Shown here one piece after another: positions 1,438 through 32,618 of a stretch of 63,191 nucleotides of DNA (positions are counted from its first letter, which is position 1; every line of letters begins with the position of its first letter). A program made the position numbers and the translations under genes. Origin of the DNA: an uncultured bacterium (GTDB taxonomy: Bacteria; Bacillota_I; Bacilli_A; RFN20; CAG-826); assembly GCA_949297445.1 (NCBI GenBank), contig CASFSS010000008.1:1-63191 (forward strand), given 5' to 3'. The notes under the pieces were generated by a model. It was not told the origin of the DNA, did no database searches, and was given only the letters and a program-made list of their open reading frames with translations.

Positions 1438-2084
1438 TTTATTGGACGCTTTTCTACGAATTTTTATTGATTGGCTTATTCACCTTTGGCGGCGGATATT
1501 CAATGATACCGCTAGTGCGTGAATTAGTGGTCGAAAGAATGGGCTGGCTTACAACTGAAGAATTTTTGAATTTTTTAGCTGTTGCTGAATCCACACCTGG
1601 TCCAATTGCCATTAATATGGCAACTTATGTTGGTTCCACGCAGGGGGGCTTTGGTGGAGCATGCCTTGCCACTTTAGGGGTCGTATTACCATCATTCGTC
1701 ATTATTTTACTTATTGCCATTATCTTGAAGCGTTTTATGAAAAATCGCTTTGTTCAAGGCTTTTTTACCGGCGTTAAACCGATTGTCTTTGCTTTGATTC
1801 TTTCTAGCGCAATCATTTTGCTAAACGACGTCTTTTTTGTCTTTTCGGTCGACACCACCGCTGGAACAATCAATTATTCATTGTCTTATCAACCATTTCT
1901 AATTGGCCTTGTTTTAATTGCTTTTATTATCTTGACAAAACAAGCCTTTCATCGAAAAGTCAATGTCATTTATATAATTGTTTTAGGTGCAATTATTGGG
2001 ATAGTCGTCAATTATGTTTTCGATGGCATCGACCCAATGATAATAAGCAGTGATCCCATTAACTTAATTAAATTATTAATCTAA
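1434..2084 (+). CDS. Chromate transporter family protein, second half-size subunit
   Basis: 216 aa. It repeats the family motifs of its upstream partner (LFTFGGGYSMIPLVRE and ESTPGPIAINMATYVGS) and is an inner-membrane protein with about five or six hydrophobic helices. It starts inside the stop codon of the first subunit (4-nt overlap), so the two are made together and probably form a heterodimer. Its end overlaps the end of the convergent addA gene by 9 bp. The substrate may be chromate or another oxyanion and is not determined by the sequence. Confidence 0.88.
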   Translation: MIYWTLFYEFLLIGLFTFGGGYSMIPLVRELVVERMGWLTTEEFLNFLAVAESTPGPIAINMATYVGSTQGGFGGACLATLGVVLPSFVIILLIAIILKRFMKNRFVQGFFTGVKPIVFALILSSAIILLNDVFFVFSVDTTAGTINYSLSYQPFLIGLVLIAFIILTKQAFHRKVNVIYIIVLGAIIGIVVNYVFDGIDPMIISSDPINLIKLLI

Positions 2085-5000
2085 GCCGACTTCTTTTAAC
2101 TCGTTGTACAATATAGATAATAAATATCCTTTAATTGGTCGCTTATCAATTTTTCTTAAATACGAAGCATATACTTTAATCTGTCTATTATATTCATCGT
2201 CATCGATGCTGCTTGTTTTATAATCGATAATGACAATCTTATCATCAAATATCATGAGCAAATCAATATAACCATAAACATCGCTCTCTTCATCGTAGAA
2301 AGGAAATTCCTGTCGAATTTCTGCATCCATAACATCATCAAAAATCTGGTTTTTTAATAAGTCATCAATGATTCTTCTATCATTCGAATCGTTAATAAAT
2401 TGAGTATCTTTAATATGAAAATCTACCTTTTCTAAGTAAGCGTGGAATTTATTGCCAACTTCCAAGGCTTCCAAGTCGGTAATATTAGAAGCTTTTTTAC
2501 TAGCACGTTCAGCTAACAATAAATCTTTCTTCATTTTAAACGAAGGAAACAAGAAAACGTGCGCGCTTGGTAGTTGCGACATATCTTGTTTTAGTAGGCT
2601 AACATCATGTGGAAGATTTTTATTGAAAATGGTGTATTTAAATTTTTTATGGTAGATACCATAAGTGAGCATTTTTCGAAAAGATGTCGCTGCAAAAAGC
2701 GACTGCACAACTTCTGATCCAATAGGCTGCTTTTCAGAGTAGTAATCAATAAAGATAACCTTTTCTTCTGCGCGTGTTAAGGCAACATAGAAAGTTCTAA
2801 GACGTTCCAAAATATCTTCGTTCCCTTCTTTTATTTTGGCTAAATAATATATCGGACTACGAATTTGTTTATTGCCGTCAAAAAACGGTATATCAATGCC
2901 GTATTTAGAGTGAAAGAAAATTGGCGATTTTGAATCGTCATTTGGGCGAGAACCAAGTAACGGCAAATAAACAATTTTATATTGTAAACCTTTCGATTTA
3001 TGAATAGTTGTGATTGTAACAGCATCTTCAACTTGCTCAAGAATCTGATTAGATAAATTAATTTCGTATTTTTCAATAGACTCAAAATATTCATAATAGT
3101 CCTTTAAAGAGGAGCAAAGTCGTTCCATTGTTTTAGCAATGTTATTAAGATATTCAATTACTGAATACGCCGTTTCAATGTTGCCAATACGCGGTAACAA
3201 TTCAATAATTTGAAATTCGGAATAAATTGCATCCAATATTTTACATAAAGGTAAGGTTTCCACTTGTTTGGCTAAGGAAACTAATTGAGCATAAAGCTGT
3301 GTGCTAGCGTAATCCTTCTTCGAAATAATGTTATAAATAGTTTCGTCGCTCGTCATAAACAAATAAGAGCGTAAAATGCTAGCAAAAGGATGTGCAAAAT
3401 TATCGTCGACATCACCATCCGTAATCATCAAAAGCATTTTGATAATATTTAAGATAATTTTTAAAACATCATGATCATAAATTTTTCGATCAGCGTTAAC
3501 GATTAATGGAATATTTTTTTCTTTAAATTTTTGGTAGAAAGAATCAAAGGACTTTTTACGGTCAATCAAAATAGCAAAATCAGAAAAACGACACTTTCTA
3601 TATTTACCACTATCATTAACCAAATAACCAGCGTTTATCTTTTCGATAATATCGTTCGCGATAATTTCAATTTCCGTCAAGCGATTTTCATAGGCGCTTG
3701 TGCTTTCATAAAAATATATCTCGTGATGAGCATTAGGATTGGCTTGATAGCTAGAATTAGCAAATTCCATCGTGTGGTCTTTTTTGTAATCAAAGCCTGT
3801 TTCACCAGCATTCATTAAGTCAATAAACAAGGTATTATTATCGTTAATAACCTCCTGGCAAGAACGGAAGTTTGCGTTCATATCAATGCGATGACCATCT
3901 TTATTCTTTCCGTATTCATCAAACCGCTTAATAAAAATTGCCGGATTTGCATTGCGGAAGCGGTAAATCGATTGTTTGATGTCACCAACCACAAAAAGAT
4001 TATTTTGAGCAAGCATGGAAACGACTTTATCTTGAATGTCATTTGTGTCTTGATATTCATCGACCATAATATAGCGAAATTTATTCCGATATTCTTGTAA
4101 AATATCCGGTTTTTGCAAGGCTTTTAGTGCTAATCTAGCAATATCAAAAAAATCATAGGCATTATTTTTTCTCTTGAAATTGTCAAGCTCATCATCTAAT
4201 TCGCGGCTTACATTCATAATAAACATGGCTCGTTTTTTTATCTCTTCGAAATGAGAGAAAAAATCTTCCTTGGAACCAAGTGTCTTAATTAACGAAATTG
4301 CTTCGTTCAATTCTGATTTGACATGATCCATCAAAATCAAATCTTCTTGAGTGTATTCAACGCTTCGTCGTTTTGAAGGATATTTTACGACATTCTCAGC
4401 GTATAGTTTTGAATAAAATTCATCATAGTCACACGCTGAATAAAAATAATTCAAATATTCAAGCGCTTTATCGACAAATTTCATATCGCTATCAAGCGTC
4501 TTAATTTTTGTTATACATTCACTTATTTTTTCGTGTGCAAGATGAAAGATTTCGTGATAAAGCTTTAATATATATTCTTTGCTCAAATATTCGCTATCAA
4601 AATTTGAATAGTACTCGTCGCGATCAATAACGTTTTCTAACGATCTAGATACATTCAAAACCGAAGTAAAAATGGGATAATCATCGCGCGTGCAAAAATC
4701 AAAAAGCAAAGAAGAAAAAACTTGGCTATTTTCCTGATATAGTTTATCAAATATTCTTTTTAAAATAATATTTTTTTCAATTTGAAAAAATTCTTTATCA
4801 AATATCGACACATCCTTGCTCACTCCTAGCCGATAATAATGGGTTTTGACAACAGAAAGAGCAAAGGCATCAAAGGTTTGAATGGAAGACAAATCAATTT
4901 CCGCCGCTTCTTTATACATATGGTGTTCAAGTAGCTTTTTGCGAATACGATCCTTCATCTCGCTAGCAGCATCCTTTGCGAAAGTTAAAACTAAAAGTTC

Positions 5001-15066: not shown

Positions 15067-15692
15067 TAATCAAGTTGTTTTTTAATTAAATCCACCAAGG
15101 GAATCGCCATCTCATAAGAATTATTATTGACGCTATTATCAATGACAATGTCGGCTAATTGTTTGGTGGGAAAAATATATTTCTCTTCCATAGGAACAAC
15201 AAATTTGTTCCATTGATTAGTTATCGATTCGGGTGACCGACCTCTTTCTTTTTGATCGCGAGCGAACCGACGCTCAAAACGAATATCGCGCTTTGCGTCT
15301 ACATATACGCAAAAATCAGCTTCTTTCATTAAAGAGGGGTAATAAAAACTTAAAATGCCTTCGACGATAATAATTTTTTTAGGCTCAACGCACATTGTGT
15401 CTAATAAACGTCTATGCTCTTTGAAGTCATAGAGGGGTATTTCAACGATTTTATTATGTTTTAATGAGTTTATATGCTTAGCTAATAATTCCCCATCGTA
15501 ACTAGCTGGTTCGTCGTAGTTTACATTCGAAAAATCACCATTAGATGAAAAAAAATCGCGACAATAATTATCAAAACCCATTGTTAAAATATCATTAGGG
15601 AACAACTCCTTAAGGTAAGAAGCAATATAAGTCTTCCCAGCAGCGCTTGGGCCAGCCATAAGGATAACAAAATTGTTTTTTGCCATACGCAA
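15066..15692 (-). CDS. udk: Uridine kinase-like P-loop kinase
   Basis: 208 aa, the usual size for Udk. P-loop GPSAAGKTYIASYL (about 14-27), the substrate region FDNYCRDFF, YDFKEHRR, IIVEGILSFYYP and the lid RRFARDQKERGRS match uridine/cytidine kinases. These phosphorylate uridine and cytidine to UMP and CMP in pyrimidine salvage. A phosphoribulokinase-like relative with another substrate cannot be ruled out. It is the first gene of a two-gene unit with the HAD phosphatase. Confidence 0.85.
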   Translation of the reverse strand: MRMAKNNFVILMAGPSAAGKTYIASYLKELFPNDILTMGFDNYCRDFFSSNGDFSNVNYDEPASYDGELLAKHINSLKHNKIVEIPLYDFKEHRRLLDTMCVEPKKIIIVEGILSFYYPSLMKEADFCVYVDAKRDIRFERRFARDQKERGRSPESITNQWNKFVVPMEEKYIFPTKQLADIVIDNSVNNNSYEMAIPLVDLIKKQLD

Positions 15693-15716
15693 ATTATATC
15701 ACAAATTTTTTAGTGA

Positions 15717-16436
15717 TTATAAAACATAGAAATAGATAGAACAAAATTGTAAGACGATACCAACGAGCACGAAGAAATGAAAAATGGTATGCCACCAAAT
15801 CGAACGTTTTTTACCTAAACCATACAAGGCTGCACCTAAAACATAGGCAACACCGCCAGCTAAACAAAGGGCAAAGCCGCTTGGCGTTAAAGCATTCCAA
15901 ATCGTGATGGGGTCAAATAGAATTGATAAACCTCCGACCAAATACATCACCATTGATACGACAGCGAATTTAAACATATTGACGGAACTTAACGAAACAC
16001 CGACCGCAATACAGACATAGCAAATGGCTAGCAATAAATAACCAGCAAAGTTAGCGCCTCCAATTCCCCATAACGGATAATCGCGCATTGCAACGAGGCA
16101 AAATGGGGCATAACTTCCAGCAATCAATAAATAAACCATCGCATGATCAATGACGCGTAGCACACGTTTACCGTTATTTTTAGCAAGCGAATGATAGACG
16201 CAAGAAATGGTCATACAAACTATTATGCTAAAAGCATAAAAACTGCAGGATACAATGGCAACGATATAGTCGACTTCATCCATCGGCGGTAAATCGGAAG
16301 GATAAACACGAGTAATTTTTAGCATCATCAAGATGAGAGCCACAATGCCAAAAAGTGCTCCTAGACCGTGCGAAATGGCGTTCCAAAGTTCTTGCGATAA
16401 TTTATAGTTAGCTAAATCAATATTTTTAACTTTCAC
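15717..16436 (-). CDS. Hemolysin III / PAQR family membrane protein
   Basis: 239 aa from GTG 16436, chosen because GGAGAAA lies 4-10 nt before it. An upstream ATG (16493) lacks such a site and would add an un-family-like basic stretch. Seven membrane helices follow. Family signatures include the N-terminal SQELWNAISHGLGALFG, SCVYHSLAKN, RVIDHAMVYLLIAGSYAPFCL and the C-terminal SIWWHTIFHFFVLVG. The conserved Ser-His and His residues bind zinc in PAQR proteins and suggest hydrolase activity on lipids. Haemolysis is known only for one founding member. A hairpin sits in its leader (16457-16482). Confidence 0.88.
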   Translation of the reverse strand: MKVKNIDLANYKLSQELWNAISHGLGALFGIVALILMMLKITRVYPSDLPPMDEVDYIVAIVSCSFYAFSIIVCMTISCVYHSLAKNNGKRVLRVIDHAMVYLLIAGSYAPFCLVAMRDYPLWGIGGANFAGYLLLAICYVCIAVGVSLSSVNMFKFAVVSMVMYLVGGLSILFDPITIWNALTPSGFALCLAGGVAYVLGAALYGLGKKRSIWWHTIFHFFVLVGIVLQFCSIYFYVL

Positions 16437-16456
16437 GGCTTTTCTCCAACAAATAT

Positions 16457-16482
16457 GCCTAGTTATTCTAGGCTTGCTAGGC
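16457..16482 (-). other. Competing hairpins in the hlyIII leader
   Basis: GCCTAG (16457-16462) can pair with either of two copies of CTAGGC (16468-16473 and 16477-16482), giving two alternative stems between the end of the HAD gene and the hlyIII ribosome-binding site. There is no T-run, so it is not a typical terminator. Confidence 0.4.
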
Positions 16483-16501
16483 GATAAAATCAATAAGTTT
16501 G

Positions 16502-17245
16502 TTAAAGATGCAATACATTCACTAAATAGTGAGCAATCCCATCTTCATCATTTGAAAGGGTAATATGTGGAGCATTTTGAATAACGATGTCAACGCTATT
16601 GCTCATAGCAACACCAATATCGGCCTGCGTAATCATTTCTAAATCGCCACTATCGTCACCAAAAACCACCGTTTTATAATTTTCACCAACGATTTTCTTC
16701 AAAGCCACATTGCCTAAATGCTTTCTAGCTAAATTTGTTCCAAAACGCGAAAAAGGGCCATTTAAATAATTTTGAAATGCCAAATCATATTTCTTTGCAA
16801 TGTCGAGCAAGAAATCTATGTTTAAACATTTGGTAATTATTTTGTAGCTTTCCATAAATAGGCCGTTTTGAAAATCTACATAAATGGCATTTTGATTATG
16901 ATAATTCGCATCGGAGGTGAAAAAATAATCTGGTGTTTGTACAGAAACATTGTCGGCATTTTCAAAAAGCAGTTTAGTAATTTCTTGCGTCACATGTGCC
17001 GAAATAGCCGTTTGATAAATTATCTTACCATTTTTATCGATTATTTCTGCGCCGCCACAATAAATACCATAGTCGGGTTTGATTAAGTCGAAAAGACGCT
17101 GACTTGCTTGGCGAGAACGTGAGGTATTAAATGCTAAAAGGTGTCCATCTTTTTGAATGCGCTTCAAGGTTTCTAAAGTAAACAGCGAGACAGAGTGGTC
17201 ACTTTTTAATAAAGTGTCATCGAGATCAAAAATGATTAAGTACAT
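16502..17245 (-). CDS. HAD-superfamily hydrolase, Cof/YkrA subfamily
   Basis: 247 aa. Motif I IIFDLDDTLLKSD is at the N terminus, and the C-terminal signature VVFGDDSGDLEMITQADIG (motif IV) is followed by AMSNSVDIV, as in Cof-type (subclass IIB) phosphatases acting on sugar phosphates or flavin and thiamine intermediates. The cap lies between the motifs. The ATG at 17245 lacks a ribosome-binding site, and a TATTCT box is 6 nt upstream, possibly another leaderless start. The precise substrate is unknown. Confidence 0.85.
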   Translation of the reverse strand: MYLIIFDLDDTLLKSDHSVSLFTLETLKRIQKDGHLLAFNTSRSRQASQRLFDLIKPDYGIYCGGAEIIDKNGKIIYQTAISAHVTQEITKLLFENADNVSVQTPDYFFTSDANYHNQNAIYVDFQNGLFMESYKIITKCLNIDFLLDIAKKYDLAFQNYLNGPFSRFGTNLARKHLGNVALKKIVGENYKTVVFGDDSGDLEMITQADIGVAMSNSVDIVIQNAPHITLSNDEDGIAHYLVNVLHL

Positions 17246-19732: not shown

Positions 19733-20587
19733 TTAATCCTTTGTTATAATAATGCCTCGATTTGATGAAGGCCCCTTATCATCAAAAATAATTTCGCCCA
19801 CGCTATCGACATAAAGTAATCCGCTAGAAAAATTTTTAATGCTTTTTATGTTGCCAAGAATATTACCATCTGCGCTAGAGTTTTCAAAGCACAAGTCGGC
19901 GTTAAGAAAACGACAATTTTTAAACACTAAATTTTGGCAATAACAAAATGGCTGCGTGCCATCAATGATACAATTTTCAAAAGTTAAATTTTTGGCATAC
20001 CAAGCGATATATTCGGCCTTAATATGGCAATTTTTTATAGTGACATTTTCCGCATGCCAGAAAATATCTTTGCTGATAAAATCACAGTCATCAAAAGTAG
20101 AATTCTTTATATACTGAAAAGCATATTTGCCAGAAAACACAATGTTTTTATAAACAATATCTGTACATTCTAAAAAAGCATATTCACCGCTAAAATTCGC
20201 GTCTTTACAACTAATTTTTTGGCATTTCCAAAACATTTCATCAGATTTTATTGAAGAGTGTCCAACGTTTAAAAATTGTGATTCGCGAAAAACTTTAATC
20301 GAATCAATCTTGCAACCAGTTAAAGAAACATCTTGGCAATACCATAGGGAGGCACGGGAATTAGCGAGAAATTCACAATCAGTTAATGTTAATTGACTAT
20401 TGTGCCATAACGGATATCTTAAATCTAATGTGCAATTTTTTAAATGTAGATTACGACATTCCTTGAGGGGCGATTCGCCATCAAGCGGCCCCATAAAATG
20501 GCATTTTATCAAATCAGTATCTTCTATGTTATATAAAGCGCGTTCGCACTCATAAGTTTTATCAATTATTTGTGTTCTTTTTTGCAT
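19733..20587 (-). CDS. DUF3737 family right-handed beta-helix protein
   Basis: 284 aa from ATG 20587, since TATAAT (20594-20599) ends 6 nt before it. An ATG 15 nt further upstream would overlap that box. The protein is a string of about 20-residue repeats with a Phe/Cys-rich pattern (LKNCTL, LTDCEF, LTGCKI, FDDCDF, IKNCHI, FENCII, FKNCRF), which predicts a solenoid like pentapeptide or pectate-lyase-type helices. This matches DUF3737, a widespread Firmicutes family of unknown function. No signal peptide or membrane segment is seen, so it should be cytoplasmic. It is followed 6 nt later by glf. Confidence 0.8.
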   Translation of the reverse strand: MQKRTQIIDKTYECERALYNIEDTDLIKCHFMGPLDGESPLKECRNLHLKNCTLDLRYPLWHNSQLTLTDCEFLANSRASLWYCQDVSLTGCKIDSIKVFRESQFLNVGHSSIKSDEMFWKCQKISCKDANFSGEYAFLECTDIVYKNIVFSGKYAFQYIKNSTFDDCDFISKDIFWHAENVTIKNCHIKAEYIAWYAKNLTFENCIIDGTQPFCYCQNLVFKNCRFLNADLCFENSSADGNILGNIKSIKNFSSGLLYVDSVGEIIFDDKGPSSNRGIIITKD

Positions 20588-20699
20588 AATCATATTATAC
20601 ATTTAATATTTTCTTTTTTATATCGCGATAAAAATATTTTAAATATCATTAATATAATTTTTAATTATTCAAAATATCATCTCTAATTCCTATTTATAG

Positions 20700-20720: not shown

Positions 20721-20797
20721 GCGCCAATAGCTCAACTGGATAGAGTACTAGACTTCGAATCTAGGGGTTGCGGGTTCGATTCCTGCTTGGCGCGCCA
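20721..20797 (+). tRNA. tRNA-Arg (TCG anticodon)
   Basis: 77 nt with encoded CCA. The acceptor stem GCGCCAA pairs with TTGGCGC. The anticodon stem CTAGA/TCTAG encloses CTTCGAA, giving anticodon TCG. The T loop is TTCGATT. Arg with UCG is less usual in Bacilli than the ACG (inosine) form. Confidence 0.94.
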
Positions 20798-20808
20798 CTT
20801 TTATAAAA

Positions 20809-20830
20809 AAAGGATGCTTGAGCATCCTTT
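20809..20830. terminator. Bidirectional terminator between tRNA-Arg and the lipoprotein gene
   Basis: AAAGGATGCT and AGCATCCTTT form a hairpin, with A-rich flank on the left and T-rich flank on the right. It can end tRNA-Arg transcription (plus) and the ECF operon (minus). Confidence 0.8.
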
Positions 20831-20847: not shown

Positions 20848-21693
20848 TTAGAGAGTAACGACTACATAAGTAGAGGAGCCATCATCTAATACAACTTTCT
20901 CAAAATAGATTGTATCTTTAGTTTTGTTTTCTTCGACTTCGCACTTCAAATAATTTTTGCCATTGCGAGTGACTCTTTCAAATTCTAATTTGAGCGATGA
21001 TAGGGCGCTAGAAGCATCTTTCACTTTCAATTCTACTTCATCATTTTCTAATTCGAGCGAATATTCATATATCTTGCGACCGTTTTGATAAATTTCATAC
21101 TCGAATTCTTGTTCGCCGGTTTCAATCTCTTGCTCAACTTTTACGTAGGTATTTTCATCGAGCATATAACGGAAGTTGATTTCTAATTCGTCTTTATCTA
21201 ATTCTTTTTCACCGAGCATAGTATATTCTAGACCATCGACAAGGAGCACGCCTTCGATTCTATATTCTCTTTCGTCCTCGTCGTCGTCATCGTCATCGAA
21301 ATCGACTTTTTCTGTTTCGTTATAATACATGGCGATAGTTTTTTCTTGATTATTAACATCCAAATAAGTAATTACTGTATGTTTACTATATTCTTGGCGG
21401 TCAGATTCTTTATCAACCGCGACAATTTGACTTTCACCATTAAAGGCGGCATCCACCGCTGGCAAATATTCTTTAATAGCTTCGACCGTTGTGTCGGAAA
21501 CGCTATTTTTCTTAAGCGCCATTGGAGCGCTTTCGTTTTCGTTCAAGATACCTAAAAATCCAACGGAGGTAACAGCCTCATAGGCGAATGTTGCTTTGTC
21601 GGTATAAACGCCGCCACCAGTTTCCATACCAGCACAGCCGGCTAATAAAACCAAAGATAAAGTGGGTATTAGGAGATTGCTAATTTTTTTCAT
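20848..21693 (-). CDS. Lipoprotein sharing its main domain with the adjacent anti-sigma factor
   Basis: 281 aa. A lipoprotein signal peptide (hydrophobic LIPTLSLVLLAGC, lipobox cysteine at residue 20) anchors it outside the membrane. Residues about 36-270 align along their length with residues about 93-340 of the anti-sigma protein upstream: YYNE, then EYRIEGVLLVDGLEY against EFHIEGIILINDNEY, then VEQEIETGEQEFEYEIY against FEQEIESETGEYEEKYVY. A short Asp/Glu run lies at about 131-141. The domain is rich in beta strands and acidic, and I recognise no named family. The gene is third in an operon sigma, anti-sigma, lipoprotein, with GAGGATC before the ATG. A role as sensor or decoy is inferred. 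Confidence 0.75.
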   Translation of the reverse strand: MKKISNLLIPTLSLVLLAGCAGMETGGGVYTDKATFAYEAVTSVGFLGILNENESAPMALKKNSVSDTTVEAIKEYLPAVDAAFNGESQIVAVDKESDRQEYSKHTVITYLDVNNQEKTIAMYYNETEKVDFDDDDDDEDEREYRIEGVLLVDGLEYTMLGEKELDKDELEINFRYMLDENTYVKVEQEIETGEQEFEYEIYQNGRKIYEYSLELENDEVELKVKDASSALSSLKLEFERVTRNGKNYLKCEVEENKTKDTIYFEKVVLDDGSSTYVVVTL

Positions 21694-21763
21694 TTATTGA
21701 TCCTCGCTTTCACTATATCAACAAATGAAATTAATGATTTATTGGAAATTTTTTAAAAAAGTT

Positions 21764-22813
21764 TTATTTTCGAATAGTTAGATAAGAATAATTTTCTTTA
21801 ACGGCTGTATATAAATAATGATTTTCATTGGGAATATCGATAGTGATTTTGCCAGTGCCGTTATCGTTTTTATAATTCATGGACAAAGCGCCTTCCGTCG
21901 ATAAGAGCAATAAGTATTCTGCTTCGTAAGAATTATTTTTATACTTAATAGATGTTTCTTTAATACCATCTTCTAATTCAAATTCTAATTCTGTCTCGTA
22001 AACTTTTTCGCCTTCTGAATATAAGCTATAAACATACTTCTCTTCGTACTCGCCGGTTTCGCTTTCAATTTCTTGTTCAAACTCCAAATAAGAAGTGGAG
22101 GAAAGCGTTATGCGCAAAGTTAGTTCATGTTCGCTTTCGTCTGCTTCCTTCTCAATTTCCTTATCTCCGCGCACACGATACTCATTATCATTAATTAATA
22201 TAATGCCTTCGATATGAAATTCTTGTTCATCTTCAAAAGCCATCTCGTGAGAAGTAAGATCGACTTCGTTATAGTAAAAATTATAGGAATCTTTAAGCGA
22301 TTCAACGGTCATTAAATAATCATATTCTTGCTCATCATAAGTAACATTCTCGACAATCTTATATGTAGGAACAAAATTGTTTTTCAACATGCTTTCAATG
22401 GTTAACATATAAGGATTGATATCATCTATATGTTCTTCAAATTCGCTTTGCGAAATAAAACTATTTTTTAATAGCGATGAGGAAGAAGAAGTATTATTGA
22501 CTATTCCGGCGCTAGAAAGCAAAGAAAAGGCCAATTGATTAGAATTACCATCGATAATCACGTTGGTAATATCGCCTGGATTACTTCCTCCGCCGTTCAT
22601 ACTTAATGGTAAAACAATCGCTAACACCAAACCGGCGGCAACAGCTGGGGTCAAAATACCATAAAAAAGTTTATTGCGATACCAAGGTGTTCTTTTTTGT
22701 TCCTTATGTTCTAAATGAATCGCCTTAATGTGCGTATTTAAAGAAGGTATTTGCTCATCGCTTACCGCATTAAATAACTGCGCTTGTATCTTTTTTTCAT
22801 CTTCGTTAAGCAT
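21764..22813 (-). CDS. Membrane anti-sigma factor with a large extracytoplasmic domain
   Basis: 349 aa. About 48 cytoplasmic residues (acidic/basic, no zinc-finger HxxxCxxC) precede one membrane helix at about 50-71 (the hydrophobic run YGILTPAVAAGLVLAIVLPL). A serine/asparagine linker follows, then an extracytoplasmic domain (about 93-345) that is homologous to the next gene's lipoprotein. The layout and its start 1 nt after the sigma gene (AGGAGG site) mark it as the cognate anti-sigma factor, tethering the sigma factor at the membrane. Release could involve site-2 protease RseP, encoded at 31.2-32.6 kb in this window. This is inference. Confidence 0.72.
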   Translation of the reverse strand: MLNEDEKKIQAQLFNAVSDEQIPSLNTHIKAIHLEHKEQKRTPWYRNKLFYGILTPAVAAGLVLAIVLPLSMNGGGSNPGDITNVIIDGNSNQLAFSLLSSAGIVNNTSSSSSLLKNSFISQSEFEEHIDDINPYMLTIESMLKNNFVPTYKIVENVTYDEQEYDYLMTVESLKDSYNFYYNEVDLTSHEMAFEDEQEFHIEGIILINDNEYRVRGDKEIEKEADESEHELTLRITLSSTSYLEFEQEIESETGEYEEKYVYSLYSEGEKVYETELEFELEDGIKETSIKYKNNSYEAEYLLLLSTEGALSMNYKNDNGTGKITIDIPNENHYLYTAVKENYSYLTIRK

Positions 22814-22814
22814 G

Positions 22815-23348
22815 TCATTTACCTCCTAACTTAATTTCTAGCTTTCTTCTAGCTTCTTGATAAAGCCAGGTCAGAGTTCCGATTTTAATTTTCGTAAATT
22901 TGGAAATTTCTTTGAAAGAATATTCACCCAAAACTCGTAAAAGAAAGACGGTGTATTCTTTCTCGGATAAGTTTTCTTTGATTAAGTCGATTAAACCAGA
23001 GTCGCTGAAATTTTCTTCCAAAAACGAATACGGAACAAAATTATTTAATAACTCATTTTCCTTTTTGTGGCGGCGATAGTAGTTAATGGCGTTATTTTTA
23101 GCCATTGTAACCAAATACGCTAAAACATCCACATCTGCACGAAGCGATGAAACATTGTCGAGAAAGGAAACATATGTTTCTTGCATTAAATCTTCTGTGG
23201 CAGTTTTATCTTTTAAAATGAGATAGATCGCGAAGTAGACACCTTTTTTAGAAAGATTATAAATGATATCAAACGAATCAATATCACCATCTTTGAGATG
23301 CACGAACGCTTCTTTAGCTACATTTTTTTCGTCGATGTCTTCCTTCAT
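22815..23348 (-). CDS. RNA polymerase sigma factor, ECF subfamily
   Basis: 177 aa. Region 2 shows TEDLMQETYVSFLDNV and the -10-binding helix VDVLAYLVTMAKNNAINYYRRHKK split by a short turn. Region 4 shows LSEKEYTVFLLRVLGEYSF and the helix-turn-helix SFKEISKFTKIKIGTLTWL. It directs RNA polymerase to a small set of stress genes. It is the first gene of the three-gene unit with the anti-sigma factor (1-nt gap) and lipoprotein. No ribosome-binding site precedes its ATG, and no obvious ECF-type -35 (GGAAC-like) is seen upstream, so autoregulation is not demonstrable. Confidence 0.88.
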   Translation of the reverse strand: MKEDIDEKNVAKEAFVHLKDGDIDSFDIIYNLSKKGVYFAIYLILKDKTATEDLMQETYVSFLDNVSSLRADVDVLAYLVTMAKNNAINYYRRHKKENELLNNFVPYSFLEENFSDSGLIDLIKENLSEKEYTVFLLRVLGEYSFKEISKFTKIKIGTLTWLYQEARRKLEIKLGGK

Positions 23349-23395
23349 AATATTAACAATTGAAATTAGATTTTTATTGGTAAAAAAATAATTAT

Positions 23396-23791
23396 TTATT
23401 TAGGATTATATAATCCTATTTTTTCAATTTCACCAACATAGTGGAGCATAATGCGGGCGCTAGAAATATTGGTCGCTAGTGGCGTTTTTGTTACATCGCA
23501 TAGTCTTAAAAGAGCAGATATATCAGGCTCATGAGGCTGACTGGTTAACGGGTCACGCAAAAATATAACTAAATCCAATAAATTGTCAGCAATCATTGAG
23601 CCGACTTGTTGATCGCCACCTAGCGGTCCGCTTTTTAAAAGCGTCACTTTTAAGGAAGTGTTAGCAATAATTAAAGTTCCTGTTGTTCCTGTCGCATATA
23701 ATTCATGTAGGCGCAAGGTATCTTCGAACTGCTTGCATAGTTCAATCATTTGATTTTTTAATTTATCGTGAGCGATTAAGGCAATTTTCAT
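23396..23791 (-). CDS. mgsA: Methylglyoxal synthase
   Basis: 131 aa from ATG 23791. A longer frame begins 36 nt upstream inside the promoter and is rejected. Diagnostic segments are [38 protein letters not shown] (phosphate binding with the catalytic Asp) and [23 protein letters not shown]. The enzyme turns dihydroxyacetone phosphate into methylglyoxal plus phosphate, a relief valve when sugar phosphates build up. A TTGTCC-17-TAGAAT promoter ends 7 nt before the ATG and there is no Shine-Dalgarno site, so the transcript should be leaderless. The ECF sigma gene follows 47 nt downstream on the same strand. Confidence 0.95.
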
Positions 23792-23798
23792 ATAATTA

Positions 23799-23827
23799 AT
23801 TCTACTAAATGGATATATAACGGACAA
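23799..23827 (-). promoter_or_regulatory. mgsA promoter, leaderless type
   Basis: On the minus strand: TTGTCC (23822-23827), 17-nt spacer, TAGAAT (23799-23804), 7 nt, then the ATG of mgsA. It is the clearest example of the leaderless architecture in the window. Confidence 0.65.
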
Positions 23828-23890
23828 TCGTATAAAAGCAAAAAATGAAATTATGTTTTATGTCGCTATTTTTAAAAATAAGTCATTAAA

Positions 23891-24550
23891 TTATCGGCGC
23901 GCTTCAAATTTTCTGATGTTTACTTTTTCACCCAAAACTATTAAGGTGTCGCCTTCTTTTAAAACATATTCAGGCTCAATGCGCGCGATAATTTTATTGT
24001 CGTTTTTAATGGCAATAATATTCAAACCAAACTTTTGACGAATATTCGTGTCGCGAATAGCATTGTTCAAATAAGACTTCGGCACTTTTACTTCGCAAAT
24101 TTCTAACTCATCATTTAAGGAAATAAAGTCCAAAATGTTTCCACTAACAAGGCGCTTCGTCAAACGATCGACACTATCTTTATAAGGATAGACCACCTCA
24201 GCACCAAGTTTTTCTAATACTAATCCTAAATCATCGGTGTTAGACATGGAGATTACTTTGACGGTCTTTAACGACAAGGCACTCAAAGTAGCGAAAATAG
24301 CCGTATCCATATGTTCACCGATGCAAACGACGATTGTGGAACAAGCTTGGAAACCCATATCTTCAAAAGTAGAAGCTGATAAATCTTCACTCACATAAGC
24401 AAAATCAGTAAACTCAAGCGCTTTTTTAACCTTTGCTTCATCTTTGTCGACGCAGACAACTTCTTTCCCGGCCTTAACTAGCGCTTCCGCTAATGCCATG
24501 CCATATTTACCTAGGCCAACAATTCCAATACTAATTTTTTTCTTTGCCAT
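23891..24550 (-). CDS. ktrA: K+ uptake regulatory subunit, TrkA/KtrA family
   Basis: 219 aa, typical of KtrA. An RCK_N Rossmann domain with GIVGLGKYGMALAEAL and acidic VCVDKDEAKV binds NAD(H)/ATP. The C-terminal half (about 140-219) is an RCK_C domain ending LKEGDTLIVLGE. It forms the cytoplasmic ring that gates the KtrB channel, and RCK_C domains can also bind cyclic di-AMP in related bacteria. ATG 24550 has GGAGATAG 6 nt upstream, and the gene follows ktrB by 11 nt in one operon. Confidence 0.92.
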   Translation of the reverse strand: MAKKKISIGIVGLGKYGMALAEALVKAGKEVVCVDKDEAKVKKALEFTDFAYVSEDLSASTFEDMGFQACSTIVVCIGEHMDTAIFATLSALSLKTVKVISMSNTDDLGLVLEKLGAEVVYPYKDSVDRLTKRLVSGNILDFISLNDELEICEVKVPKSYLNNAIRDTNIRQKFGLNIIAIKNDNKIIARIEPEYVLKEGDTLIVLGEKVNIRKFEARR

Positions 24551-24561
24551 TTTTCTATCTC

Positions 24562-25962
24562 CTATCCGATACGTATATCTTCAACGACATAATCAAATTT
24601 TTTCATATTTTTTCTTCTAATTACAGTCGATATTGATAAAGGACCAATTCGACCTATATACATTAGTAATATTAAAACGATTTTGCTACCAATTGAATAA
24701 TAAGGGGTAAAACCGGTAGTTAAGCCAACTGTTCCAAAAGCCGACATCGCTTCGAATACATAATCGATGAAGGAGAAGCGAATTGCTCCTTCTTGATATT
24801 CAAAAATCTTATCGCCGGTAGCCGAAATATAATTTACATTGCCTTCAAAAATACAAATTAGGAAGACGCCACACAAAAAGACGCTGATGCCCAATAAAAG
24901 AATCAAAGATGCTCTTTTAATTAAATCATCGCTCATTCGACGACGGAATAAAGTAGGATTCTTGCCCAAAACCAAACCGCGGAAGTAAGCAAATAAAACG
25001 GCTAAAGTTGCTGTTTTAATACCACCGCCAGTTCCACCTGGGCTGGCTCCAATAAACATCAAAATAGTCATGACAAATATTGTCGCATCGCGATAGGTGG
25101 ACAAATCGTACAAAGTAAAGCCAGCTGTTCTTGTCGATGTTGACATAAAGAAGGCGCCAAAAAAACTTGTGTGCGAATCGTTATTTATCTCGCATAAATA
25201 AATTAGTAAAGTGCCTACGACTAATAAAAAAGCCGTGTATGATAAAACAACTTTAGTGTGCGTATTAAATTTATTAAAGCGAAAACCGCGAGAGACAACA
25301 TCGATTATGACAAAAAAACCAATCCCACCTAAAATAATTAAGATGGCTGTTGTAATGTTTAATAAATAATCGTTTTGAAAAGGTATGAGGGATTTATTGC
25401 CAAATAAATCGATTCCGGCGTTATTAAAGGCACTGACCGAATGGAATATCGCGTAGCCAACCGCCTCATCCAACGGATATGAATGAATGTAATAAAAATC
25501 TAAGAACAAAATAATTGCACCGGCTGTCTCAATGGTGAATGTCACAACTAAAACTAAGAAAAATACTTTGCGAAGGCCACGAAAGGATCTTAAATTCCAG
25601 GTTTCTTTTACGAGCGTCTGCTCATTAAAAGAGATTTTTGAAGAGATAACCATGAAAAAGAAAACGGCAAATGTCGTCACACCTAGACCACCAATTTGAA
25701 TTAAAAAACCGGTGACAATTCTACCAAATAAACTATAAGTTGGCCCAATTCCATCCACGACAGATACTAATCCTGTGACACATGTCGATGTAGTCGCAGT
25801 AAATAAAGCATCAATGTATGAGGGAGAATAGCCTTCCTCATAGGCAAACGGCAAGACAAGTAAAATGCTGCCTACAAGAATTACAATTAAAAAGGAGAAC
25901 GAAATAACAAAAAACGGAGTTATTTTGAAATTTTTTAGGCGTTCAATTAATTTCTCTTTCAT
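24562..25962 (-). CDS. ktrB: K+ transporter membrane subunit, TrkH/KtrB family
   Basis: 466 aa with about eight to ten membrane helices and four pore-loop repeats. The selectivity glycines are visible in TSTCVTGLVS, FHSVSAFNNAGIDLFG, STRTAGF and SAFGTVGLTTGF. It is the K+ (Na+-coupled) translocating subunit and works with the downstream KtrA. The first gene of the pair, it lacks a clear ribosome-binding site, and a TAGAAT box lies 15 nt before the ATG. The 155-bp upstream region is AT-rich, and I see no cyclic di-AMP riboswitch there. Confidence 0.92.
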   Translation of the reverse strand: MKEKLIERLKNFKITPFFVISFSFLIVILVGSILLVLPFAYEEGYSPSYIDALFTATTSTCVTGLVSVVDGIGPTYSLFGRIVTGFLIQIGGLGVTTFAVFFFMVISSKISFNEQTLVKETWNLRSFRGLRKVFFLVLVVTFTIETAGAIILFLDFYYIHSYPLDEAVGYAIFHSVSAFNNAGIDLFGNKSLIPFQNDYLLNITTAILIILGGIGFFVIIDVVSRGFRFNKFNTHTKVVLSYTAFLLVVGTLLIYLCEINNDSHTSFFGAFFMSTSTRTAGFTLYDLSTYRDATIFVMTILMFIGASPGGTGGGIKTATLAVLFAYFRGLVLGKNPTLFRRRMSDDLIKRASLILLLGISVFLCGVFLICIFEGNVNYISATGDKIFEYQEGAIRFSFIDYVFEAMSAFGTVGLTTGFTPYYSIGSKIVLILLMYIGRIGPLSISTVIRRKNMKKFDYVVEDIRIG

Positions 25963-31239: not shown

Positions 31240-32618
31240 TACATGATACCTATTAATCGCAATATATCTATGATTAATATTATAATCATAAATCCAAATA
31301 AAATGATTAAACCAATTGCTGAAACAATATTTTTTACTTTATTTGGAATCTTTTTTCTTGTCGCACCTTCAATGGCGGTAACCAAAAGCGACCAACCGTC
31401 CAATCCGGGGAAAGGAAGCAAGTTAAAAATTGCAAGGTTGATAGAAATGACTGCCCAAAAATAAAAATATGTCGCAAACGTATAAGAAGAATAGATGGTA
31501 GCGCTTTGCGTCATTATGCCAATAATGCCTGACACTTCACTTTGACCGGTAAATAGCATGCCAATTCCTTTAAAAATAGCGCTGGCGGCCGAACCATAAT
31601 CGATAAAAGTATTTTCTAGCCTTGTGGCAAAAGGCAACCATTCATTGCGGTTTTGGAAGCTCATACCGACATCTTGCCAATAAAAGTTGGTCGTATCATC
31701 GCTTCTTGCAACCATTTCAAATGTCGCGTTGACTTTCTCACTATCATAAATAATATCTCCTTCAGTCGTTGAGGAAGGAACATAAAAACTCAAAGTTGTC
31801 GAGTAACTAGCGTTTAAACTCGGATGCAAATATTCTTTTGAAAAATCGGGATAATATGGAAGCGAGTAGCCATTTGCAATCCAATTTTTAAAGGCTTCTT
31901 CGTTTGGGGTTTCACTCGCTTGAAATAAATAAACAGATTGAGAAAACACTGGTTCGCTACGATTGCCGGTAGGAATATACATTAAAACATAGTTCGCATC
32001 GTTATAAACAACATTGTCGTCGATTATATAACCATATTGATTATTTATGTCGGAATTAGATGTGCCACTAACTGGAATGGCACTGAAATTACTAATGCCA
32101 TCAACAGTTATTTCACTGCCATAAATATAAAGATGATAATCGCTTCTAATTCCCGCTTCATAAGCAACACTATTTTCAACTACCGTTACATTGCTGGTTA
32201 AATAGACAGTTGGAAAACATACATCGCTTACAAAAATAAAGACATAGCCTAAAGAAAAATTAAGAATAATGCCAGCCGCTAAAATAATGGCTTTTTTCCA
32301 CTTTTTAATGCCCTCTAATGATCTTTCTTCCGGGACATTCACGCCATCCTCTAATTCAATTTCTTCCCCGTACATTGAAACGTATCCGCCGAGCGGAATA
32401 GCACGAATGGAAAAATATGTTTCGCCACCTTTGCGGCGTTTCTTTAATAGTTTAGGGCCAAAACCAATCGAGAATTCTTGACAATAAACATTGAATAACT
32501 TAGCCATGGAAAAATGGCCCAATTCGTGAATGGTGATTAGCACCGCTAAAGCGATGATAAACATTAAAATTGAGACGACCCAATCTATTGCGCTTATTGA
32601 TGATAGTATGTTGAGCAT
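31239..32618 (-). CDS. rseP: Site-2 membrane metalloprotease RseP (RIP family)
   Basis: 459 aa. The zinc-binding HExxH is in ITIHELGHFSMAKL near the first membrane helix, and the second active-site motif is NLLPFPGLDGW near the C terminus (NxxPxPxLDG). A PDZ-type domain and an enlarged extracytoplasmic insert lie between them, with four membrane helices in all. It cuts anti-sigma factors and leftover signal peptides within the membrane. The ECF anti-sigma factor at 21.8-22.8 kb is a possible substrate (inference). Its start overlaps dxr by 25 nt. Confidence 0.93.
   Translation of the reverse strand: MLNILSSISAIDWVVSILMFIIALAVLITIHELGHFSMAKLFNVYCQEFSIGFGPKLLKKRRKGGETYFSIRAIPLGGYVSMYGEEIELEDGVNVPEERSLEGIKKWKKAIILAAGIILNFSLGYVFIFVSDVCFPTVYLTSNVTVVENSVAYEAGIRSDYHLYIYGSEITVDGISNFSAIPVSGTSNSDINNQYGYIIDDNVVYNDANYVLMYIPTGNRSEPVFSQSVYLFQASETPNEEAFKNWIANGYSLPYYPDFSKEYLHPSLNASYSTTLSFYVPSSTTEGDIIYDSEKVNATFEMVARSDDTTNFYWQDVGMSFQNRNEWLPFATRLENTFIDYGSAASAIFKGIGMLFTGQSEVSGIIGIMTQSATIYSSYTFATYFYFWAVISINLAIFNLLPFPGLDGWSLLVTAIEGATRKKIPNKVKNIVSAIGLIILFGFMIIILIIDILRLIGIM

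Follow-up and report, generated by a model that had tools for sequence, protein, structure and literature searches.

An ECF sigma/anti-sigma locus in which the anti-sigma ectodomain and a co-conserved lipoprotein are paralogous copies of one acidic domain

Three adjacent genes in the window, by which we mean the whole 63,191-nucleotide stretch of DNA that was analysed, encode a sigma factor of the extracytoplasmic function (ECF) type, a single-pass membrane anti-sigma factor and a lipoprotein, and one acidic beta-meander domain occurs there in two paralogous copies, as the ectodomain of the sensor and as the lipoprotein. Sigma factor, anti-sigma factor and lipoprotein form a conserved unit, and we give a probability of roughly 0.5 to the reading that they constitute a self-contained autoregulated ECF circuit, the dedicated product of which would be a copy of the sensor domain that captures the same ligand as an effector.

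The locus and its shared domain

The sigma, anti-sigma and lipoprotein genes named in a preliminary description of this DNA were recovered as three minus-strand open reading frames (ORFs), and are listed here with a likely terminator and a peptidase gene.

22815-23348, minus strand: sigma gene; ECF sigma factor of 177 aa with regions 2 and 4 only
21764-22813, minus strand: anti-sigma gene; 349 aa, assigned by position, hydropathy, profile homology and AlphaFold2 model
20848-21693, minus strand: lipoprotein gene; 281 aa, assigned by lipobox, profile homology and AlphaFold2 model
20804-20830, minus strand: likely intrinsic terminator 3' of the lipoprotein gene, AAAGGATGCT-CA-AGCATCCTTTTTTT, read from the sequence
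31242-32618, minus strand: M50 (RseP-type) intramembrane peptidase gene (Pfam Peptidase_M50, 3.1e-53)

The sigma factor scores above the cut-offs for Sigma70_r2 (2.9e-11) and Sigma70_r4_2 (6.2e-6) in Pfam and for sigma70-ECF (4.2e-17) in NCBIfam, and its length and region content are those of ECF (group IV) factors, which comprise about 160-200 aa and regions 2 and 4 only. A gap of 1 base separates its gene from that of the anti-sigma factor, which has the layout of a membrane anti-sigma factor encoded beside its sigma gene: a cytoplasmic N-terminus (residues ~1-50), a single transmembrane segment (~52-72) and the shared domain on the extracytoplasmic side (~85-347). One strong transmembrane segment, starting at residue ~40-63, is present in each anti-sigma factor of all 65 loci listed. 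The earlier remark that the protein lacks the zinc motif of ZAS proteins extends to the family, as HxxxCxxC occurs in none of the scanned anti-sigma factors, and the window protein has no cysteine residues. The lipoprotein consists of a signal peptide, the lipobox LAGC with Cys20, and the shared domain (~32-279); a lipobox is present in 28 of 28 trio lipoproteins of the first set, and Cys20 is invariant across 36 aligned lipoproteins. Judged by sigma domains, operon, promoter type and topology, the locus is assigned to the ECF/anti-sigma systems. The preliminary description had also pointed to RseP as an available protease; an M50 peptidase is indeed encoded, about 8 kb from the trio and not specific to it, and its part in cleaving the anti-sigma factor is conjectural.

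An apparent tRNA gene (minus strand, near 20725-20800) lies between the lipoprotein gene and a downstream gene for a DUF3737 protein (19733-20602; Pfam 1.1e-95), and directly upstream of the operon (23396-25962) are genes for an MGS-like domain protein and for TrkA and TrkH potassium uptake. Genomes of these bacteria measure about 1.1 Mb, and just three sigma-70 genes, the trio sigma gene among them, were found. The genome's second ECF-like sigma gene (L083, 1426-1938, plus strand) adjoins a gene (1953-3194, plus strand) for a single-pass membrane protein with a serpin ectodomain (Pfam Serpin, 4.8e-30), an apparent serpin-domain anti-sigma factor; the pair corresponds to G000:C15 about 15470-17238. 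A similar long protein occurs in several relatives, and our literature search for serpin-domain anti-sigma factors returned no paper joining serpin and anti-sigma in this way.

Homology between the lipoprotein and the anti-sigma ectodomain, proposed earlier from short aligned pieces, was borne out by composition-adjusted BLASTP (E 3e-15, 41% over 104 aa) and by the profile comparison that had been suggested as a check, in which hhalign, run on 28 anti-sigma factors and 36 lipoproteins, gave a probability of 99.9 and an E-value of 2.5e-35 over 245 co-linear columns. The profile alignment spans residues 85-337 of the anti-sigma factor and 34-278 of the lipoprotein and covers the pieces quoted before. 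AlphaFold2 models of the two proteins, built separately, agree in fold and share one order of elements, helical segments followed by about 14 antiparallel strands, which fits the claim of a beta-rich domain. The N-terminal helices comprise residues 90-105 and 122-143 in the anti-sigma factor and 32-50, 67-74 and 77-85 in the lipoprotein; mean pLDDT is 74 for the anti-sigma model, with the beta domain mostly near or above 90, and 79 for the lipoprotein model, with the beta domain mostly above 90.

As previously described, the domain is acidic: D+E amounts to 21-22% and K+R to 8-9% in both copies, against 12.5% and 11.5% in other ORFs, and the net negative charge per 100 residues is about 13 in both domains compared with 0.9 in other ORFs and 7.1 in other putative lipoproteins nearby. 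Since both domains hold about 21% D+E, their similarity might be thought to reflect shared acidic composition alone, a reading to which we assign a negligible probability and which we rejected on the strength of the adjusted BLASTP score, the co-linear profile match, the identical strand order in two separate models and near-invariant glycine and glutamate positions common to both families. The homology is not compositional because it is based on ordered columns and shared invariant positions. These positions are G203, E228, E250 and E257 in the anti-sigma factor, corresponding to G148, E169, E191 and E194 in the lipoprotein, and when 61 anti-sigma ectodomains are aligned together with 70 lipoproteins they are conserved at 89-100% in each family. 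By the strand limits of the lipoprotein model, E169 stands at the start of a strand, E191 at the end of the strand after it and E194 at the start of the third, and E228, E250 and E257 of the anti-sigma factor are placed likewise. From this predicted secondary structure, the three glutamates should be neighbours, side by side on three consecutive strands. Conservation of this row in the two paralogues points to a cationic ligand or metal common to both, or to a common structural requirement, and the acidity as a whole may stem from habitat or stability rather than from cation binding.

No Pfam family matches the window lipoprotein or anti-sigma factor, NCBIfam returned nothing meaningful for either, and among the known ectodomain families in both databases there was nothing consistent across members. 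Searching PDB sequences with both profiles gave weak, unrelated matches only (best E 0.014), and in the PDB fold search none of the 50 top-ranked matches to each model fell below E 0.02, with TM-scores of about 0.2. The domain family of sensor and lipoprotein is an undescribed one.

The promoter pair and the spread of the trio

The motif CCAATAAA-N13-TTGTTRAT precedes the sigma gene as well as that of the lipoprotein, and these two sites are the only exact matches in the window's genome.

23352-23380, minus strand: ECF-type promoter of the sigma operon, CCAATAAA aatctaatttcaa TTGTTAAT, exact motif match
21717-21745, minus strand: ECF-type promoter of the lipoprotein gene, CCAATAAA tcattaatttcat TTGTTGAT, exact motif match

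The sigma ATG lies a few bases past the -10 half of its promoter (window 23346-23380), and some relatives have the first ATG of their sigma ORF within the promoter motif itself; translation may begin at a point further inside the ORF, or the sigma mRNA may lack a leader.

We fetched 100 loci around genome-search matches; a set of 81, consisting of the window and 80 loci from its order, contains 65 sigma genes of this kind. The lipoprotein gene is among the next four same-strand genes in 62 of the 65 sigma loci and is exactly third in 57, and of 20 loci fetched from the class outside the order, 17 contain the trio. In the preliminary description, a search of related genomes had been proposed, and here the genes proved to be linked in nearly all homologues. 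With the agreement in predicted fold, neither of the two outcomes named there as refuting the idea was obtained. One locus (L055, from genome G012) carries sigma and anti-sigma genes without a lipoprotein gene, and its ectodomain has diverged. Elsewhere, an anti-sigma match with one in-frame TGA was noted at G098:C26:13795-14439 (L020, L049). Eight loci from other families of the class (L175-L179, L185, L188 and L189) have the operon order lipoprotein-sigma-anti-sigma, with an ECF-type promoter before the lipoprotein gene and none seen before the internal sigma gene.

Scanning the order yielded some match at 1e-3 in 148 of 192 genomes, many of these being signal-peptide matches, and a best match of 1e-20 or lower in 82 of the 192; a sample drawn from the whole class gave matches at 1e-8 in 76 of 296 genomes, of which many lie beyond the order. 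Named genome contigs gave no match in a single-sequence search and 20 loci in an alignment search, all in metagenome-type assemblies titled uncultured bacterium, Firmicutes, Bacilli or, once, Clostridia, with no cultured carrier among them.

Across the order, the bipartite motif lies upstream of 57 of 65 sigma genes, and thus of the sigma factor's own operon, as ECF autoregulation would have it, and of 58 of 62 lipoprotein genes, compared with merely 1 of 65 anti-sigma genes and 1 of 538 other ORFs; the counting pattern was composed after viewing the sequences, and its specificity rests on the 538 control upstreams. The -35 half alone precedes 60 of 65 sigma genes, 60 of 62 lipoprotein genes and 17 of 538 other ORFs. 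This half is nearly constant among clades; the -10 half is clade-dependent (TTGTTRAT, TTGTATTA, TCGTATTT or CCGTTTGG), and both genes of one genome usually agree. A test that uses no motif, comparing the sigma upstream with the upstreams of all genes in its locus, found the lipoprotein upstream to be the best match in 48 of 62 loci, where 11.8 would be expected.

We also searched for the regulon by sequence pattern. In nine close trio genomes and in G012, every zero-mismatch match to CCAAYAAA-N13-TTGTTNNTA genome-wide lies at this locus, and one-mismatch matches elsewhere resemble those of a reversed-pattern control. A looser pattern gave 8 matches in the window's genome, against 6 for the reversed pattern, and the six that fall outside the operon do not have the appearance of gene promoters. 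With the motif in front of both genes and almost nowhere else, the targets of the sigma factor are very probably its own operon, the lipoprotein gene and little besides, and the earlier suggestion that the lipoprotein is a feedback product of the sigma factor gains strong support from the promoter common to both genes.

History of the domain

In a tree of the ectodomains, the anti-sigma and lipoprotein roles form two separate old lineages, with two or three changes of role label on the tree against 17-21 when labels are shuffled. The duplication is ancient, and the origin by duplication that had been suggested for the pair is now supported by the profile comparison, the shared predicted fold and this tree. 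One anti-sigma factor stands apart.

L060 7031-8140, minus strand: anti-sigma gene of genome G076, with a lipoprotein-type ectodomain by its position in the tree

The ectodomain of this protein falls among the lipoproteins and has 57% identity to the lipoprotein of its own genome over 104 aa, and its grouping with the other anti-sigma factors is rejected (AU p 3.1e-8); the remaining anti-sigma factors of that tree lie on one side of a branch with support 90. On the simplest reading, the sensor ectodomain would have been replaced by a copy of the lipoprotein domain while the circuit was kept, which would mean that the sensor is able to use the lipoprotein's version of the domain.

Nine genomes possess the lipoprotein and no anti-sigma factor of this family, and in them nothing but the lipoprotein matches the anti-sigma profile strongly. 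The ECF motif is absent from 8 of 8 upstreams read for these solo lipoproteins, several of which have TTGAC-type sites instead. The solo lipoproteins of family f5 nest within the f1 group in the tree, so the f5 genomes may have gained a lipoprotein gene rather than lost its regulators. Retention of lipoproteins without the anti-sigma factor would argue that the lipoprotein is more than the decoy or co-sensor considered in the preliminary description.

Proposed mechanism, alternatives and related systems

Sensor and product are built from the same acidic domain, which suggests that they handle the same signal. In the circuit that we propose, the sigma factor would at rest be held at the membrane by the N-terminus of the anti-sigma factor. 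An extracytoplasmic ligand, probably cationic, would contact the anti-sigma ectodomain, and the anti-sigma factor would then be cut stepwise, with the M50 protease as the candidate site-2 enzyme. Sigma factor freed in this way would transcribe its own operon and the lipoprotein gene. The lipoprotein would add more copies of this binding domain to the membrane and, capturing the same ligand there as an effector, would lower the signal.

Co-regulation alone fits equally well with direct binding of the lipoprotein to the anti-sigma factor. RseA and MucA are protected by the established co-regulators RseB and MucB, and the RpoE/RseA/RseB and AlgU/MucA/MucB systems resemble the trio in joining a sigma factor, an anti-sigma factor and an extracytoplasmic third protein (PMC7400510). 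By analogy, the lipoprotein could bind the ectodomain, like domain to like, and shield it from site-1 cleavage until a signal breaks the complex, newly made lipoprotein then shutting the system off. Adjacent, co-regulated genes with paralogous domains are what such feedback would predict, and the diverged ectodomain of the lipoprotein-less G012 locus is in keeping with it; we nevertheless regard this explanation as unlikely, albeit the strongest of the alternatives. Nine genomes retain the lipoprotein without any anti-sigma factor of the family, and in G076 the hetero-pair has become nearly a homo-pair, which would be tolerable only with a symmetric interface. Moreover, RseB and MucB are LolA/LppX-like, are not homologous to their anti-sigma partners, RseB having no domain in common with RseA, and are, like LolA, absent from the top 50 matches of the PDB fold search with either model, whereas the third protein of the trio is homologous to its sensor. 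The solo lipoproteins and the apparently interchangeable domain of G076 would thus favour a shared ligand over shielding of this kind.

Another possibility is that the lipoprotein is the signal and not the response, the sensor monitoring the lipoprotein or its ligand-loaded form and thereby reporting on lipoprotein trafficking or surface stress. The position of the lipoprotein gene at the head of the operon in several families fits a self-measured reporter, but a signal induced by the sigma factor would tend to lock the circuit on, and we consider this checkpoint improbable. A further reading, in our judgement very improbable, is a duplication without any present functional link, with the lipoprotein gene beside the operon for historical reasons. 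Tandem duplication alone would be expected to leave adjacency and similarity, yet the trio stays together where gene order elsewhere in the class has been reshuffled, the promoter pair changes in step across clades, which needs continued selection, and the ectodomain replacement in G076 likewise speaks against it.

For capture of a shared ligand, the preferred reading, we tentatively extend the proposal to the class: an undescribed ECF cassette whose sole or near-sole other target is a surface copy of the sensor domain, the matched pair sensing and buffering the same ligand through the glutamate row, with occasional exchange of domains between sensor and product. We place this extension at somewhat below even odds.

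The RsgI systems are the closest in idea to the trio, and RseB/MucB the closest in three-part layout. In the cellulosome-forming Clostridium thermocellum, SigI/RsgI pairs combine an autoregulated operon with a single-pass anti-sigma factor whose sensing modules are carbohydrate-binding modules of a kind also present in secreted proteins (PMC6056542, PMC10575876). The trio has in common with them a sigma operon that is probably autoregulated, the single-pass anti-sigma factor and a sensor domain that is also found in an exported protein; unlike the RsgI systems, with their known carbohydrate modules and many controlled enzymes, it is a three-gene unit with a domain lacking a Pfam family and one product that is a paralogue of the sensor. 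Neither the RsgI N-terminal domain nor a known carbohydrate-type sensor module was matched by Pfam in 28 members. SigV/RsiV of Bacillus subtilis, in which RsiV is the lysozyme receptor (PMC4183432, PMC5014341), likewise pairs an ECF sigma factor with an anti-sigma factor that spans the membrane once and has an ectodomain as receptor for an extracellular ligand, a role shown for RsiV and supposed here. The RsiV ectodomain consists of DUF4163 plus DUF3298, however, and Pfam matched neither in the window protein or in the 28 members. MPT83 is a lipoprotein encoded near the SigK locus and is not known to share an extracytoplasmic domain with RskA. The mycobacterial SigK/RskA system with MPT70/MPT83 resembles the trio in that the ECF sigma regulon includes a lipoprotein (PMC7509140). 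Our searches of openly licensed papers turned up no ECF sigma factor described as having a lipoprotein paralogue of its sensor for a dedicated product.

The activating cue is not known for most ECF systems, and a product that is a paralogue of the sensor offers an evolutionary handle on it. Because of this kinship, the soluble domain of the lipoprotein could be used as bait to fish for the sensor's ligand. The promoter is sharply defined, and the apparent regulon of one operon and one gene is small enough to rebuild in a laboratory host, giving a testable role to a widespread family without a Pfam model.
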